From an uncultured Endomicrobiia bacterium (lineage in GTDB: Bacteria; Elusimicrobiota; Endomicrobiia; Endomicrobiales; Endomicrobiaceae): DNA of 34,763 nucleotides. Within the stretch, counting starts at the first letter, position 1, and every line of letters begins with the position of its first letter. Below, one piece after another: positions 8,315-34,757 of this stretch. The notes beneath the pieces are model-generated. The model was not told the origin of the DNA, searched no databases, and saw only the letters and a list, made by a program, of their open reading frames with translations. The stretch spans positions 9,717-44,479 of the forward strand of contig CAJOJJ010000004.1 of assembly GCA_905234925.1 (NCBI GenBank), in the 5' to 3' direction. Position numbers and translations under genes: made by a program.

Positions 8315-9200
8315 TTAAAATTTCCAACACTAACTCTTCAAAACTCATTCCGATATATTTTGCCGCATCCGGAAACAATGAAGTTTTCGTCATACCCGGC
8401 AATGTATTTAATTCCAAAACATATATTTTGTTATTTTTATCAACTATCATATCCGCTCTGCAGGTTCCTTTACAACGGAACTCTTCATATACCTTAAGTG
8501 CAATTTTTTGAATTTGCTTCAACACTTTTTCAGGAAGTCTTGCCGGGATAATATGTTTCGATTGTCCGACGGTATATTTTGATTTAAAATCGTAAAACTT
8601 ACCCTTAGGTACTATTTCTATAACGGGAAGAGGATTACCGTTTAAAACTCCTGCAGTAACTTCTACGCCTTTAATGTATTTTTCCACCAAAACTCTGTCT
8701 TCATATGAAAATGCCAGTTTAACGGCTTTTTCAAATTCCTTTTTATTTTTTACTATTGATATTCCTATCGCAGAACCTTGAGACGCAGGTTTTACGACAA
8801 CGGGGAAATCTATTTCTTTAAAAGGTTTATTTTTTTCTATAACCGTCCATTCGGCAGTAGGGATATCCGCATATTCAAATATTTTTTTTGAAACTATTTT
8901 ATCTATACTTGCGGCACTTGAAAATACTCCGCAGCCCGTGTAAGGTATGCCCATCACTTCCAACATTCCCTGAATAGTTCCGTCTTCACCCGGCGTTCCG
9001 TGCAGAGTGATATAAGCAACATCTATTTTTTCTTTCTTTAATTTTTCGGCAACGTTCTTATTAACATCTATCAATACAACTTTGAAACCGAGCTTTTTTA
9101 TTGCATCATAAACTGCCTTGCCCGACATTAAAGATATTTCTCTTTCCGATGATGTTCCGCCGCACAACACACCTATTTTTTTATTTTTTAAATTTATCAT
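8301..9200 (-). CDS. ddl: D-alanine--D-alanine ligase
   Basis: GVLCGGTSSEREISLMSG, HGTPGEDGTIQGMLE, LELNTLPGMT. Confidence 0.96.
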   Translation of the reverse strand: MINLKNKKIGVLCGGTSSEREISLMSGKAVYDAIKKLGFKVVLIDVNKNVAEKLKKEKIDVAYITLHGTPGEDGTIQGMLEVMGIPYTGCGVFSSAASIDKIVSKKIFEYADIPTAEWTVIEKNKPFKEIDFPVVVKPASQGSAIGISIVKNKKEFEKAVKLAFSYEDRVLVEKYIKGVEVTAGVLNGNPLPVIEIVPKGKFYDFKSKYTVGQSKHIIPARLPEKVLKQIQKIALKVYEEFRCKGTCRADMIVDKNNKIYVLELNTLPGMTKTSLFPDAAKYIGMSFEELVLEILKSCR

Positions 9201-10195
9201 TTTACTATCCGTATTTCAGTTTCAAGTTCTATATTATATTTTTCAAAAACTTTCTTTTTTACATACTCTATAAGTGCCAGCATATCTTTTGCTGTCCCTT
9301 TATTTTTATTAATGAAAAAATTTGCATGTTTAGATGATATTTCTATTTCACCGATGTTATAATTTTTCAGATTTAGGCTATCTATTAATCGTCCTGCGGA
9401 ATCGTTTTTAGGATTTTTAAATACGCACCCTGCATTTTTAACACCTGCAGGCTGAGTATTCTTTCGTTTTTCAAGTTCTTGTGAAATATTTATTAGAATA
9501 TCATTTTTATCAGCATTTTTCAACTTAAAAAAAGCTCTTGTTATTACACAATTTTCAAGTCCGCTTTTTCTATACTCAAAATTTATATCTTTTCTGTCTA
9601 AAATTTTCTTATTCCCGTCGAAATCTATAATTTCTATCTTTATCAAATTGTCGGATATAGAACATTCTTTCACACCTGCATTACCGAATATTGCTCCGCC
9701 AATTGTCCCGGGAATACCTGCAAGATGTTCAAAACCGCTTAAGCCCTGCTCTGCAGTCTGTTTTACAACCGCCGGCAAACTTGCCGCTGACGAAACAGAT
9801 ATTTTTTCTGTCGTCATTGCGAGCTCGTCAGAGCGTGGCAATCCGGCGTCTTTGCCGTTGCAAATCTTCCAATCCTCTAATCTTCCAATATTCTTAAAAT
9901 TGTTGTTCTGCGATAATTTTATTACTATCCCCTTAAAACCCTCATCGGGAAAAAGTATATTCGTCCCCCCGCCGAGAATAAAAAACTTAAATTTGTTTTC
10001 TTTTATAAACTTCAGCAAGAAAATTAACTTTTCTTCCGTGTCAACTTCAACAAAAAAAGAGGCATCCCCGCCGATACCAAGCGAAGTATGTTTTGATAAC
10101 GGTTCATTAATTTTATATTTGAAATTTCCGAACGATAGAAAATTTGCTATATCAGGTTTAATAGTTTTTCTCCCTGTTACCGAATATTTTTCTAT
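9197..10195 (-). CDS. murB: UDP-N-acetylenolpyruvoylglucosamine reductase; non-canonical start and in-frame repeat insertion
   Basis: GGGTNILFPDEGF, AGIPGTIGGAIFGNAG, and C-terminal CVFKNP...AGRLID. The listed ORF starts at TTG 10018, but the same frame stays open to 10204 and encodes ...KYKINEPLSKHTSLGIGGDASFFVEVDTEEKL, the conserved FAD-domain N-terminus, with no ATG/GTG/TTG. The start given (ATA at 10195) is a guess. Confidence 0.88.
   Translation of the reverse strand: MEKYSVTGRKTIKPDIANFLSFGNFKYKINEPLSKHTSLGIGGDASFFVEVDTEEKLIFLLKFIKENKFKFFILGGGTNILFPDEGFKGIVIKLSQNNNFKNIGRLEDWKICNGKDAGLPRSDELAMTTEKISVSSAASLPAVVKQTAEQGLSGFEHLAGIPGTIGGAIFGNAGVKECSISDNLIKIEIIDFDGNKKILDRKDINFEYRKSGLENCVITRAFFKLKNADKNDILINISQELEKRKNTQPAGVKNAGCVFKNPKNDSAGRLIDSLNLKNYNIGEIEISSKHANFFINKNKGTAKDMLALIEYVKKKVFEKYNIELETEIRIVK
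9812..9893. repeat. Intergenic-type repeat modules embedded in frame in murB
   Basis: GTCATTGCGAG..GCGTGGCAATCCGGCGTC plus CTTCCAATCCTCTAATCTTCCAA; both recur in non-coding DNA or gene edges (34631-34678; 13022-13070; 13708-13740). Confidence 0.8.
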
Positions 10196-11331
10196 AAAAT
10201 AAATTCAAAAAAATTATCTTTTGAAACAACCTTAAATTCAGAATCAGGATATGCATCTATCCAAGTAGACGGAACTTTATATTTTTTATTATGCGTATTG
10301 TATTTAAACTCATAAGCATAAAGTTTTTGTTCTTTTTCCTCTACATAATCAATTTCAACATTGGTATATGTTCGCCAAAAATATCCGTTAGCTCTTAAAT
10401 TGTTATAGTCAATATATTTTTTTCTTTCACTTATAAGAAAATTTTCCCATACCTTACCTACATCATCTCTCAGTTTTAAATTATTAAAATTATTTATCAA
10501 TACATTTCTTATACCGTTATCATAAAAATATATTTTATCCATTTTTGTTACTTCTTTTCTTAAATTTTTACTATATCCCGATAACCTGAAAACGATAAAA
10601 GCCTGCTCTAATATTGAAATATATTTTTCCACGGTTGCTTTATTCATTGACAACTGTGTCGCAAGTTCCGACATTGAAACTTCACTGCCAACCTGAAAAG
10701 CTAAAAGTTGTAACAAATCTTCAACTTTATTTATATTTTTTATCGATTCCAAATTTAATATGTCCTTATAGATGTAAGACTGTGTCAACTCTTTTAAATT
10801 TCTGTATTTATATTCCAAATTCTGCTGATTAAAAACATCAGGATATAAACCATATACTAAAATATTATCCAACATTGATTCTAAATCAATTTTTGAAAAA
10901 TAATTTTTTAGTTCGCACAAAGCCAATGGATAAAGTTTGAAAGAAATATTTCTTCCGGTTAATGGTTCTTTTGTTTTGTTTGCCAAATCAAAAGAAGATG
11001 AGCCTGTAACTATTATTTTTAAATTTGGTATTTGATCGTGCATTATTTTTAAATTAAGACCTATGTCGGGAACCCTTTGTGCTTCATCAATAAAAATTAT
11101 ATTTGAGTCTCCAATAAGCTCTTTTAATTTAATAGAATCTTGTGAGGATAAAATGTCTCTGAATCTTTTTTCATCGGCAGATATTTCTAAAATTTTTTTA
11201 TCAGTGTATTTTTGTAAAATATCCCTGGACAAGGTTGTTTTGCCAACTTGCCTCGGTCCATAAATAATTATTATTTTATCTAAATTTAGTGTTTCAATAA
11301 TTGATTGTTTTAATGTTCTTGTTATCTTCAT
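10192..11331 (-). CDS. AAA family ATPase with DUF4143-like C-terminal domain
   Basis: IIYGPRQVGKTTLSRDIL Walker A, IIFIDEAQRV Walker B, VTGSSSFDL, GRNISFKLYPLALCEL, C-terminal EIDYVEEKEQKLYAYEFKYN. Confidence 0.9.
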   Translation of the reverse strand: MKITRTLKQSIIETLNLDKIIIIYGPRQVGKTTLSRDILQKYTDKKILEISADEKRFRDILSSQDSIKLKELIGDSNIIFIDEAQRVPDIGLNLKIMHDQIPNLKIIVTGSSSFDLANKTKEPLTGRNISFKLYPLALCELKNYFSKIDLESMLDNILVYGLYPDVFNQQNLEYKYRNLKELTQSYIYKDILNLESIKNINKVEDLLQLLAFQVGSEVSMSELATQLSMNKATVEKYISILEQAFIVFRLSGYSKNLRKEVTKMDKIYFYDNGIRNVLINNFNNLKLRDDVGKVWENFLISERKKYIDYNNLRANGYFWRTYTNVEIDYVEEKEQKLYAYEFKYNTHNKKYKVPSTWIDAYPDSEFKVVSKDNFFEFIL

Positions 11332-12929: not shown

Positions 12930-13072
12930 GATTACTCCAATTTATAATTTATAATTTACAATTTATAATTAAAAATACCTTTTTGCTTCCGACCTTCCGA
13001 CCATCTGACCTTCTGAGATTCTGCCGTTTCCATACTTCTACTCTTCTAATCCTCTAATCTTCCAAAAAGTTG

Positions 13073-13525: not shown

Positions 13526-13587
13526 TTTTCTATACCTCTAAAATCACGAAATAATTTTTCAGCTGAGAAGCTGAGAAAGCTGAGAAC

Positions 13588-13606: not shown

Positions 13607-13720
13607 TTAGCTGAGAGTTTAAAGTATTTTATGACATAGATTCCCGCCAAAATGCGACGCGGGAATGACAAACTAACGACCATTTATAATGTACAATGTC
13701 GTTTCCAATCTTCTACTCTT

Positions 13721-14239
13721 TTAATCCTCTAATCTTCCAAAAAATTGCTCCGCAATTTTTTCTGCAACTTCCTCGGGAGTTATATTTTCCGTATTTATTG
13801 CAAAGTCACACTGTTCATATGCTTTTTTTCTTTGGGCAAGCAGTTTCACTATTTGCTCAAAAGGGTTTGTCATTTTTTTTATCAAAGGTCTTGTATCATC
13901 CTGTCCGAGCCTTTTAAGAATATGGTCTGCAGATGCATACAAATTAAAAATTACACCGTTTTTTCCAAGATTTTCAATATTTCTCGGATCAACTGCCGCA
14001 CCGCCGCCGCATGAAATAACGCTATCATTCATTCTCGATATCAATGCAATAGTCTGCACTTCAAATTCTCTGAATTTCGGTTCGCCAATATTTTTAAATA
14101 TCTCGCTTATCGTCGCACCAAGCTTTTCTTCTATTATCGCATCGGTATCAACGAACTCTCTATTTAATTTTTTTGCAAGTATTTTACCGACGGTAGTCTT
14201 CCCCGTTCCCATAAAACCCGTAAGAACAATATTTTTCAT
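13721..14239 (-). CDS. aroK: Shikimate kinase
   Basis: IVLTGFMGTGKTTVGKILAKKL, FVDTDAIIE, SCGGGAAV, RPLI. C-terminal codons built from repeat modules. Confidence 0.95.
   Translation of the reverse strand: MKNIVLTGFMGTGKTTVGKILAKKLNREFVDTDAIIEEKLGATISEIFKNIGEPKFREFEVQTIALISRMNDSVISCGGGAAVDPRNIENLGKNGVIFNLYASADHILKRLGQDDTRPLIKKMTNPFEQIVKLLAQRKKAYEQCDFAINTENITPEEVAEKIAEQFFGRLED
13739..13761. repeat. Triloop palindrome inside the aroK 3' coding end
   Basis: AAAAAATTGC-TCC-GCAATTTTTT, translated as KIAEQFF. Confidence 0.85.
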
Positions 14240-17860: not shown

Positions 17861-17946
17861 AGCATTTCTCCTTTTTGTTTTTTAGCTGATAAGTTGAGAA
17901 CGAAAAACTTTGTTTTTCTTAGCTGATAGGCTGATAAGTTTGTTGT

Positions 17947-20043: not shown

Positions 20044-20109
20044 AAAAGTGCTTTGCACTTTTGTTATTTTAACAAAAAATTTCCAGTCTCTGAAATCGCT
20101 TCGCGATTT
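20044..20109. repeat. Two triloop palindromes
   Basis: AAAAGTGC-TTT-GCACTTTT (20044-20062) and AAATCGC-TTC-GCGATTT (20093-20109). Confidence 0.85.
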
Positions 20110-20127
20110 ATTGTACATTGTACATTA

Positions 20128-20150
20128 TAAAAATTGCTTCGCAATTTTTA
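20128..20150. repeat. Gene-end triloop palindrome (RCC1-like ORF stop)
   Basis: TAAAAATTGC-TTC-GCAATTTTTA; contains the stop at 20148-20150. Confidence 0.9.
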
Positions 20151-22820: not shown

Positions 22821-22948
22821 TGTTTTTTCAAACTAGCCTCACTTTGCTGTTGTAGTCCGCAATCTATGTTAATCGTCCGCAGGACACCGAATTTGCTCAT
22901 TTCTAATTATCTTTTCGTTGTTTATTGTACATTATACATTGTACATTA

Positions 22949-23734
22949 TTAAAAGTCGCTGAGTGACTTTTCCACCGGTATCGGGCCTGCACTCGAGCCG
23001 TCAACAAATTGCTTTAACATTTTATCTTCCGTTGTCTTCGGGTTGGCTATCGTCGCTTTTAATTTATCGACACTTCCTTCAAAAATAATTCTTCCCAAAT
23101 ACAGCATTATAATTCTGTCGGCTATCTTATATGCCGAATTCATATCATGGGTAACAACTATTGAAGTAATTCCCAGTTCTTTTTTTAAGTGGATTATCAA
23201 CTCCCCGATAACATCCGACATTATCGGATCAAGCCCGGTCGTAGGTTCGTCGTAGAAAACATATTTAGGCTTGTAAGCTATCGCTCTTGCAAGACCGACT
23301 CTTTTTTTCATACCGCCGGAAAGTGCAGACGGTTTTAACTTTTCTATATTTTTAAGACCTACCATATTCAAACACAAGGTAACTCTTTTTTTCATTTCTT
23401 CTTTTGACAAATTTGTAAGGTTTTTCATACCGAAAGCAATATTTTCTTCTATAGTCAAAGAGTCAAACAATGCAGCTTCCTGAAACAAAAAACCAATCTT
23501 TTTTTGAGCCTCGCGGATTTCGTCTTTATCGGCAGTTATCATATTTATATTATCAATCAAAATTTTACCAGAATCGGGTTTAATAAGCCCGACGAGATTT
23601 TTAAGCAAAATACTTTTTCCCGTTCCGGACCCGCCGATAATAACAAGAGTTTCGCCGTCTTTCACTTCCAAACTCACACCGCAAAGAACTTTCTTGGTAT
23701 CAAAAGATTTATATAAATTTTCTACTTTAATCAT
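22949..23734 (-). CDS. mlaF: ABC transporter ATP-binding protein, MlaF-like
   Basis: GGSGTGKSILLKNLVGL Walker A, LSGGMKKRVGLARAIA, YDEPTTGLDPIMSDVI. Confidence 0.92.
   Translation of the reverse strand: MIKVENLYKSFDTKKVLCGVSLEVKDGETLVIIGGSGTGKSILLKNLVGLIKPDSGKILIDNINMITADKDEIREAQKKIGFLFQEAALFDSLTIEENIAFGMKNLTNLSKEEMKKRVTLCLNMVGLKNIEKLKPSALSGGMKKRVGLARAIAYKPKYVFYDEPTTGLDPIMSDVIGELIIHLKKELGITSIVVTHDMNSAYKIADRIIMLYLGRIIFEGSVDKLKATIANPKTTEDKMLKQFVDGSSAGPIPVEKSLSDF
22951..22971. repeat. Gene-end triloop palindrome (mlaF 3' codons)
   Basis: AAAAGTCGC-TGA-GTGACTTTT, one G:T mismatch; abuts the stop (22949-22951). Confidence 0.85.
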
Positions 23735-24334: not shown

Positions 24335-24344
24335 AACAATTTTT
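24324..24344. repeat. Gene-end triloop palindrome (ybaK stop in loop)
   Basis: AAAAATCGT-GAA-ACAATTTTT, one mismatch; stop TGA (24332-24334). Confidence 0.8.
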
Positions 24345-24431
24345 AGCTGAGAAGCTAAGAACAGCGAAACTACAACGACACCGGATTACCACTCTCGACG
24401 AAGTCTCGCTCGAGATGACAAGTCATTTTTT

Positions 24432-27188: not shown

Positions 27189-27209
27189 AAAAATTACTCC
27201 GTAATTTTT
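27189..27209. repeat. Triloop palindrome directly upstream of the MltD-like gene
   Basis: AAAAATTAC-TCC-GTAATTTTT; mRNA strand shows GGAG in the loop, 11 nt before the ATG. Confidence 0.85.
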
Positions 27210-27413
27210 AGTTAATAAGCTGAGATAGCTGAGCAGCTGATAAGTTTTCGGCACTTTTTTAATTATGGATTCCCGACAAACAGATTAACGACAGATCTCT
27301 CACTCTCGCTACGCTCGGTTCGAGATGACATAAATGTCACCTTTGGGAATGACACCGCTACGCAGTTTTCGTCGTTTATTGTACATTATACATTTTATAT
27401 TATACATTGTACA

Positions 27414-28076
27414 TTAAATTTTGCTACGCAAAATTTTAATCGTTTCTTTCGGATTTTCAGCAGAGAAAATAAAACTTCCGCTGACCAAAACATCAACACC
27501 GGCATCTATACATATTTTCGCCGTATCAAAGTTTATTCCGCCGTCAACTTCCACTAAACAACTATATTTATTTTCGTCTATAAGTTTTCTGAGCTCGGAA
27601 ATTTTCCCGACCATATCGTGCATAAAACTCTGTCCGCCGAAACCCGGCTCTACAGTCATAACAAGCACCACATCAACAAGAGGCAAAAGTTCGACAATAT
27701 CTTTAACGGGGGTTTTGGGTTTTATTGATATACCTGCTTTTATTCCCGCTTTTTTAATATTTTTAATTAATTCTTTTTTATCACAGTCAACTTCGGCATG
27801 AAATACTATCAAATCGGCACCGGCTTTATAAAAACTTTCCCAATATTTTTCCGGATTTGTTATCATAAGATGTACATCAAAAAACATTTTGGAACATTTT
27901 TTTATGGATTTTACTACTACAGGACCTATAGTTATATTCGGCACAAAATGTCCGTCCATCACGTCTATATGCAGCCAGTCTGCACCGGCATTTTCCACAA
28001 CGGAAATATCCCTGCTTAAGTTTGCAAAGTCTGCAGATAAAATTGACGGAGCTATTAAAATATTTTTCATTATCAA
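27414..28076 (-). CDS. rpe: Ribulose-phosphate 3-epimerase
   Basis: IAPSILSADFANL, HIDVMDGHFVPNITIGP, MTVEPGFGGQSF, EVDGGI, GSFIF. Confidence 0.97.
   Translation of the reverse strand: MIMKNILIAPSILSADFANLSRDISVVENAGADWLHIDVMDGHFVPNITIGPVVVKSIKKCSKMFFDVHLMITNPEKYWESFYKAGADLIVFHAEVDCDKKELIKNIKKAGIKAGISIKPKTPVKDIVELLPLVDVVLVMTVEPGFGGQSFMHDMVGKISELRKLIDENKYSCLVEVDGGINFDTAKICIDAGVDVLVSGSFIFSAENPKETIKILRSKI
27416..27436. repeat. Gene-end triloop palindrome (rpe 3' codons)
   Basis: AAATTTTGC-TAC-GCAAAATTT; translated as KILRSKI, abutting the stop. Confidence 0.85.
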
Positions 28077-34088: not shown

Positions 34089-34757
34089 TTATAACCAAGA
34101 ACTATCTTTTTCTTGTTTATAAATAATTTTCCCACCCAAAGTAATATTATACTGCAACAAAAACATTGTTTTATTTGGAATCATCAATTCTTGCGGAATA
34201 GCCATATAAGAATGAAAATATTTTTTCAAATCATGCTCAGGAGTAGCAGGACCTGCTTGAAACCAAGTAAAATATTTATTTCCTCTGGCATCTATATTAA
34301 GTACCGTATTATTATCCGTCCATTCTCCACCTTCATAACGACCCAAAAAATTTCCATATTCAGAATAATAGGCTTTTTGTGCAGAAAGAATTGTTCCAAA
34401 CAAAGCATAAGCTTCCGATATTTTTGCTTTATCGACGTATCCCCTGTAGATTGGTACTGAGATTACTGATAAGATAATAACGATGGCAATTGTGATTACA
34501 AGTTCTACCAATGTGAAAGCGGCACGGCTAAAAGGTGTTTTATTAACATCAACAGAACAAACTGCAGATCTCTCGTCGCTTCGCTCACTCGAGATGACAG
34601 GAATGTCTATTTCGGGAATGACAGATGAACTACAACGACACCGGATTGCCACGCCGACTTCGTTGCCTCGCAATGACAACCTGTTTTGGTTGTTGTCGTT
34701 TGTTGTACATTGTACATTATACATTGTACATTTTTGTTTCCTTTCAAGGTTTTTCAT
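34089..34757 (-). CDS. Type IV pilin-like protein with ~70-residue repeat-derived insertion in the leader
   Basis: MKNLERKQ + repeat-encoded segment + SRAAFTLVELVITIAIVIILSVISVPIYRGYVDKAKISEAYALFGTILSAQKAYYSEYG. Confidence 0.8.
   Translation of the reverse strand: MKNLERKQKCTMYNVQCTTNDNNQNRLSLRGNEVGVAIRCRCSSSVIPEIDIPVISSERSDERSAVCSVDVNKTPFSRAAFTLVELVITIAIVIILSVISVPIYRGYVDKAKISEAYALFGTILSAQKAYYSEYGNFLGRYEGGEWTDNNTVLNIDARGNKYFTWFQAGPATPEHDLKKYFHSYMAIPQELMIPNKTMFLLQYNITLGGKIIYKQEKDSSWL
34530..34733. repeat. Cluster of dispersed repeat modules within the pilin leader
   Basis: TGTACATTGTACATTATACATTGTACA; GGATTGCCACGCCGACTTCGTTGCCTCGCAATGAC; CTCTCGTCGCTTCGCTCACTCGAGATGAC. Confidence 0.8.

Follow-up and report, generated by a model that had tools for sequence, protein, structure and literature searches.

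Dispersed repeat modules lie in frame inside the murB gene of a rumen-lineage Elusimicrobiota genome

The Rickettsia palindromic elements (RPEs) long ago posed the question of how repeats turn into protein text. In R. japonica, the orthologues of genes carrying RPE-4, RPE-6 or RPE-7 have different repeats, or none, near the same site, and an ATGAC motif is common (PMC3767692). In Rickettsia conorii, RPE-4 and RPE-6 are members of the superfamily of CGTC-tagged REPs (Di Nocera 2013, PMC3733652). As described there, these repeats are dispersed and show a CGTC tag, an AT-starting stem, a CC tail, compensatory stem variants and some in-frame copies in open reading frames, and they are reported without a dedicated transposase. 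The phyla listed there are Proteobacteria, Chlorobi, Bacteroidetes, Spirochaetes and Thermotogae; Elusimicrobiota is absent from the list.

We analyzed a stretch of 34,763 nucleotides (the window) from a single MAG assembly of 1.37 Mb in 106 contigs, related to rumen Elusimicrobiota of the Ca. Ruminimicrobiellum group. With 11 species-level genomes and a case in a core cell-wall enzyme, this rumen lineage provides a second system, from a phylum unrelated to that of Rickettsia. MurB is expected to be essential, and a search of the genome found its gene in single copy. The identity of the product follows from its FAD_binding_4 and MurB_C domains, its conserved motifs and its MurB fold. A first-pass annotation had claimed that two repeat modules otherwise seen in spacers sit in frame inside this gene, with the reading frame kept. 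Both modules could be placed exactly and both belong to dispersed families (Table 1); the frame is intact across the 26 inserted codons, with no stops, and the conserved motifs of MurB are kept. The further copies that it had located were also recovered: GTCATTGCGAG was found at 34667-34677 (-) within the copy that had been given as 34631-34678, and second modules lie at both places named, near 13050 and 13720. The murB palindrome consists of a CGTC tag, an ATTGC...GCAAT outer stem, a variable inner hairpin (GCTC-gtca-GAGC) and a CC tail. It folds at -11.9 kcal/mol with 10 pairs, and this copy is structurally intact.

Table 1 Features of the window that carry or adjoin the repeat modules.
Feature	Position	Strand	Basis or remark
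murB (UDP-N-acetylmuramate dehydrogenase)	9197..10162	-	NCBIfam NF010480 above cut-off; Pfam FAD_binding_4 and MurB_C; 5' comparison
Repeat-derived in-frame stretch GRLEDWKICNGKDAGLPRSDELAMTT, residues 107-132 of the 335-aa frame	9809..9886	-	78 nt = 26 codons
Palindromic element GTCATTGCGAGCTCGTCAGAGCGTGGCAATCC = GTCATTGCGAG-CTCgtcaGAG-CGTGGCAATCC	9813..9844	+ (antisense to murB)	78 genome copies, aligned copies, fold
Tail GGCGTCTTTGCCGTT..., then junction to the second module	9845..9865	+	Same tail after many other palindrome copies, consensus [AG]G[TC]GTCGTT
Second module CTTCCAATCCTCTAATCTTCCAA, degenerate 8-nt-period repeat	9866..9888	+	Reads [I]GRLEDWK in murB
Second module	13042..13065	+	In spacer, adjoins ORF end
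Second module over the 3' end of the shikimate kinase gene (13721-14239, -)	13717..13740	+	Supplies final residues GRLED and the stop codon
Type IV pilin-like gene	34089..34757	-	80-aa leader of repeat modules ahead of FTLVELV
Palindromic element copy in frame within the pilin-like gene leader	34643..34677	-	Reads SLRGNEVGVAIR

The exact 11-mer GTCATTGCGAG occurs in 78 genome copies (43 + 35) on many contigs, against 0 + 0 for its reversed control. Exact CTAATCTTCCAA gave 11 copies (7 + 4; control 0), and the 26-mer TTGGAAGATTAGAGGATTGGAAGATT gave 25 matches at up to 3 mismatches (14 + 11; control 0). The census comprises the copies found by the exact 11-mer, with their flanks. These copies have in common CGTC-ATTGCGAG...CG[TA][GA]GCAATC, frequently followed by the tail shown in Table 1, and between these parts the arms of the inner hairpin co-vary: GCCGAC/GTCGGC, GACCGC/GCGGTC, GCAACC/GGTTGC, GCAAAC/GTTTGC and GCTTGC/GCAAGC in other copies, GCTC/GAGC in murB. 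Among 37 distinct middles, the mean complementary run was 3.65, versus 2.34 when arms were swapped between copies, with a maximum of 2.76 over 500 shuffles. The inner arms change together, and therefore the GTCATTGCGAG repeats are a family of palindromic elements. A gapped pattern (GTCATTGCGAG-N12-CGTGGCAATC, up to 3 mismatches) was set aside after 3 matches; it was too rigid because the length of the hairpin varies. An Rfam search over 9600-10100 returned one chance match, far below the gathering score. Across Elusimicrobiota, counts of GTCATTGCGAG are patchy, from 0 to 398 copies per genome, and the window genome (G000) is the richest within its genus. The 398 copies were seen in G043, a genome of the same order, in about 2 Mb.

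The closest kind is the CGTC-tagged REP or Rickettsia RPE-4/6/7 type. The Rickettsia analogy drawn in the first-pass annotation was apt, and lies nearer to RPE-4/6/7, with their CGTC tag and ATGAC motif, than to the long RPE-1 (PMC3733652, PMC3767692). REPs of this type have CGTC, or TGTC/CCTC, beside the stem; here CGTC or TGTC stands in nearly all copies, and in murB ...TGTCGTC directly precedes ATTGC. Their stem starts with AT and has 8-9 bp and a loop of 4-5, whereas the stem here is broken by a small internal loop between the ATTGC/GCAAT outer part and an inner stem of 4-6 bp, with a loop of 3-4. A tail of about CCA is found as GCAAT-CCA or -CCG in the CGTGGCAATCC subclass, and is CT[TA] in the CGAAGCAATC subclass. 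As in those REPs, which are multicopy, dispersed, mostly intergenic and in part intragenic, the 78 copies are spread over many contigs. Unlike them, these belong to Elusimicrobiota. With RPE-4/6/7 the repeats share in-frame copies in conserved enzymes at tolerant sites, orthologues with different repeats or none, and the ATGAC/CGTC motif, the murB insert ending in CTCGCAATGACGACA on the coding strand (PMC3767692, PMC3733652). They differ in phylum and in that a palindrome is joined here to an 8-nt-period module unrelated to it.

Other described repeats stand further away. RPE-1/2/3 and the Wolbachia WPE are likewise protein-coding palindromic repeats, and no sequence match between them and the peptides described here was found; Rickettsia RPEs are also described as 100-150 bp long (PMC3767692). 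The RU/MITE-like repeats of enterobacteria are similarly short, non-autonomous and mostly intergenic with some coding copies, but are MITE-like, are longer, at 103-168 bp, and come from another lineage (PMC2759123, PMC2229807). When RPE domain models were sought, neither the murB insert nor the leader peptides had a match in NCBIfam, including any RPE models in that library. By analogy, the murB repeat works like an RPE, the likeness seen here being one of behaviour. A literature search for the literal 11-mer GTCATTGCGAG found no relevant paper, and one for Endomicrobia and palindromes found none. New here are the compound module, the phylum Elusimicrobiota and the concentration in leader peptides, which we did not find described for CGTC-tagged REPs in the accessible part of PMC3733652.

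The first-pass annotation had asked whether the insert would lie in a surface loop of the MurB fold. Alignment to a solved MurB (4pyt) breaks exactly at the insert, passing from chain residue 85 to 88. The best PDB fold matches of an AlphaFold2 model built from 16 sequences (mean pLDDT 87.5) are MurB structures. In the model, pLDDT falls below 50 at residues 113-130, between strands 106-108 and 132-138, so that the insert is modelled as a low-confidence surface excursion between two strands. It is predicted to form a disordered surface loop at a beta-hairpin turn of the FAD-binding domain. Columns invariant in the 16-sequence alignment are kept, for example Y211, the F262-P265 motif and E330, and the insert-bearing MurB would presumably be active.

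MurB is present in 58 of the 60 relatives searched. Orthologues might have held the same residues as the insert, as had been pointed out beforehand; in an alignment of 30 frames, our own and those of 29 relatives, none of the 29 carries them. Most aligned relatives have a turn of a few residues at this site. L005-L010 have longer loops of their own, mostly hydrophilic, L015 has a small extension, and the congeners G002, G006 and G010 have loops of a length similar to the insert in the same place. No repeat text could be recognised by eye in the DNA of the congener loops. The site is thus a length-tolerant turn that was already variable in the genus. The size of 26 codons stands; the net gain is not simply 26, amounting to roughly 15 residues relative to G007, the congener of highest identity, and to some 23 relative to congeners with short loops. 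Since identity to even the closest relatives is only 60-73%, the ends of the murB insertion cannot be fixed exactly, and because no congener is close enough to offer an empty site at the DNA level, both the event and its exact ends are what we infer from these comparisons.

The best explanation, to which we assign a probability of roughly 85%, is that a compound block of repeats was copied into the murB gene of one lineage, with the frame kept, and that such copies survive where the protein is disposable. We hypothesize that small palindromes and satellite-like repeats proliferate in these bacteria, and that CGTC-tagged, REP/RPE-like palindromes and the 8-nt-period repeat were copied together into murB. 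The block would have landed at the surface beta-hairpin turn of the FAD-binding domain, where length is tolerated in the genus. With few stops in its usable frames, it would have kept the frame and given a MurB with a disordered 26-residue excursion, the enzyme being spared. Selection would then sort the copies, those in coding sequence surviving in disposable segments, most often the prepilin leader and also hairpin turns, interdomain linkers and gene ends. A possible but rather unlikely course is that recombination, either between repeats or with another gene, swapped the block into a long loop that was already there. The similar length of the G002, G006 and G010 loops would fit such an exchange, as would the different RPE groups that Rickettsia orthologues carry near the same site (PMC3767692), but the loop of G007, the closest by identity, is about 15 residues shorter and lacks repeat text. 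We infer that murB was hit by the insertion of an existing repeat, not by loop-to-repeat recombination.

Other coding copies were found in the genus. The interdomain linker of a U32 peptidase (contig 28; L197) carries MYNVQCTIYNKKQESRHCEEQTKSATWQSSVV, which is the TGTACA module plus a murB-type palindrome. In congeners this linker is occupied by other repeat text, including KIGGLEDLKV and WKIGRMEDW, which derive from the second module GGAAGATT, and one of these linker repeats was found independently by the search for the second module. At this linker, orthologues therefore carry different in-frame repeats as with RPE-4/6/7, while the congener murB loops vary without recognisable repeats. An O-antigen-ligase-like protein of G007, named by eye, contains ILEDWKIGELEDWTVGRLE. 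A tsaD-like frame (L123) at the end of contig 79 of the window genome is fused to repeat text; the same upstream text occurs twice there, and we set the case aside as a probable misjoin for that reason.

The main coding site of the repeats is the prepilin leader. The genome gave 67 matches to one pilin N-terminus, and in 19 of these 67 frames the DNA from the upstream stop to FTLVELV contains a GTCATTGCGAG-type copy, which may point either way and is accompanied by other modules. Among leaders with a visible ribosome-binding site and ATG, 28 are at most 10 aa and 20 are 12-112 aa long; leaders were not measured in 19 further genes, 13 cut by the end of the sequence read and 6 without such a start. 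The 20 long leaders comprise 902 codons and no in-frame stop, whereas the other two frames of this DNA contain 55 and 58 stops and are each open in only 1 of the 20. The zero follows in part from how the leaders were defined, and the weight lies with the control frames and with the rarity of genes without a start. The sequences suggest a few independent insertions into leaders, followed by co-duplication with the pilins.

Pilin-like genes number 67 in G000, 64 in G007, 95 in G004 and 1-12 in the eight other congeners. G007 combines its 64 pilins with 34 palindromes, and most of a sample chosen there for long frames has leaders of 28-55 aa with other GTCAT-type repeats. In G004, with 95 pilins and 5 palindromes, none of the 20 measured leaders reaches 20 aa, and among 21 pilin frames from other congeners no leader with an identifiable start exceeds 10 aa. 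All 11 genomes of the genus carry a gene for a prepilin peptidase. This enzyme removes prepilin leaders, whose length differs among known systems (PMC10191384), so great length alone is nothing new in a leader; our literature search found no report of leaders built from repeats. Tentatively, leaders might be a preferred, selectively neutral harbour, in which repeats could accumulate in frame at no cost because the segment is discarded by the peptidase, and shared hairpin tracts might promote recombination and expansion among the 60-plus pilin genes.

The linker with different repeats in different species and the dozens of pilin leaders, where tolerance is readily explained by the segment being cut off, make it possible to test directly in this lineage the idea that insertions survive only where the protein is disposable. 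We propose that selection favours frame-keeping copies in disposable protein segments, and the murB insert is presumably neutral. It is improbable that the insert is instead functional, as a stability or interaction element of the protein or as an RNA or DNA hairpin tuning murB expression. Compensatory change between copies keeps the inner hairpin as a perfect stem, in murB too, yet this symmetry belongs to the whole family and not to murB specifically. The insert is moreover predicted to be disordered, and the same repeat type in unrelated proteins and in cut-off leaders points to tolerance and not to a shared task.

For the movement of the palindromes, a REP-associated tyrosine transposase (RAYT), the agent suggested for GTAG REPs, seems quite improbable. 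G000, the richest in the repeat, is alone among the 11 genus genomes in having a full Y1 transposase. This gene, however, is of IS200 type (132 bits against a cut-off of 55) and scores 42 as a RAYT, below the cut-off of 80; the tag here is CGTC, not GTAG; and other Elusimicrobiota hold up to 398 copies. As the only Y1 transposase is an IS200 type without a GTCATTGCGAG copy flanking it, the RAYT route is unsupported, in line with CGTC repeats being reported without a dedicated transposase (PMC3733652).

We consider it very improbable that the repeat marks a false join of the assembly or the loss of a decaying gene. Copies of GTCATTGCGAG lie within about 100 bases of the ends of contigs C3, C4, C7, C15, C28 and C67, and the repeat probably fragments this assembly; such breakage and the suspicious join at the repeat copy in contig 79 would fit a chimera. 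Against this, the two flanks of the insert make up a single murB, correctly ordered and in frame, well inside a 44-kb contig, and repeat text is also present at another shared site, the U32 linker, in congener genomes that were assembled independently. Decay could be read from the start of the gene. The frame is open to 10204, with 335 aa from stop to stop, and the TTG start listed at 10018 would truncate the protein. No ATG, GTG or TTG stands ahead of the conserved N-terminal motif in the window murB or in relatives L005, L007-L009, L011, L012, L017 and L019. The region upstream of this motif lacks a canonical start codon, so murB expression rests on an ATT start. The probable start is the ATT codon at 10160-10162, with a GGGAGA ribosome-binding site ahead. 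In many relatives a GGAG-type site followed by ATT at normal spacing was seen at the same place before murB, and L013 and L014 have ATG. The region 10160-10174 (-) and its counterparts in relatives look like a conserved AUU start, which thus appears common to relatives without such an insert; with the invariant residues kept, no stops and a single copy, this argues against a pseudogene.

Ordinary drift of a hypervariable loop, with a coincidental or low-complexity likeness to spacer repeats, is hardly credible: L005-L010 do carry unrelated, longer hydrophilic loops without repeat text at this turn, but the murB insert holds an exact 11-mer found 78 times versus 0, then CGTGGCAATCC, an intact inner hairpin, the usual tail and a second exact dispersed module alongside.

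For gene callers, these findings are a warning that repeat-derived starts and leaders will be mis-annotated. An AAA ATPase gene (10192-11331, -) lies between murC and murB; in some relatives the murC 3' end and the murB 5' end apparently overlap, and a murC-end-like remnant is still found ahead of murB in the window. A further family, TTGTACATTGTACATT(AT), occupies spacers at 20098-20135, 22912-22949, 27366-27417 and 34683-34734, and is found as well within the U32 peptidase and within pilin leaders, where it reads MYNVQCT. A third spacer repeat, TTTTTAGCTGATAAGCTGAGAA, and AAAATTGC-loop-GCAATTTT hairpins adjoin gene ends at 13556-13577, 17879-17937, 24340-24361 and 27205-27226.
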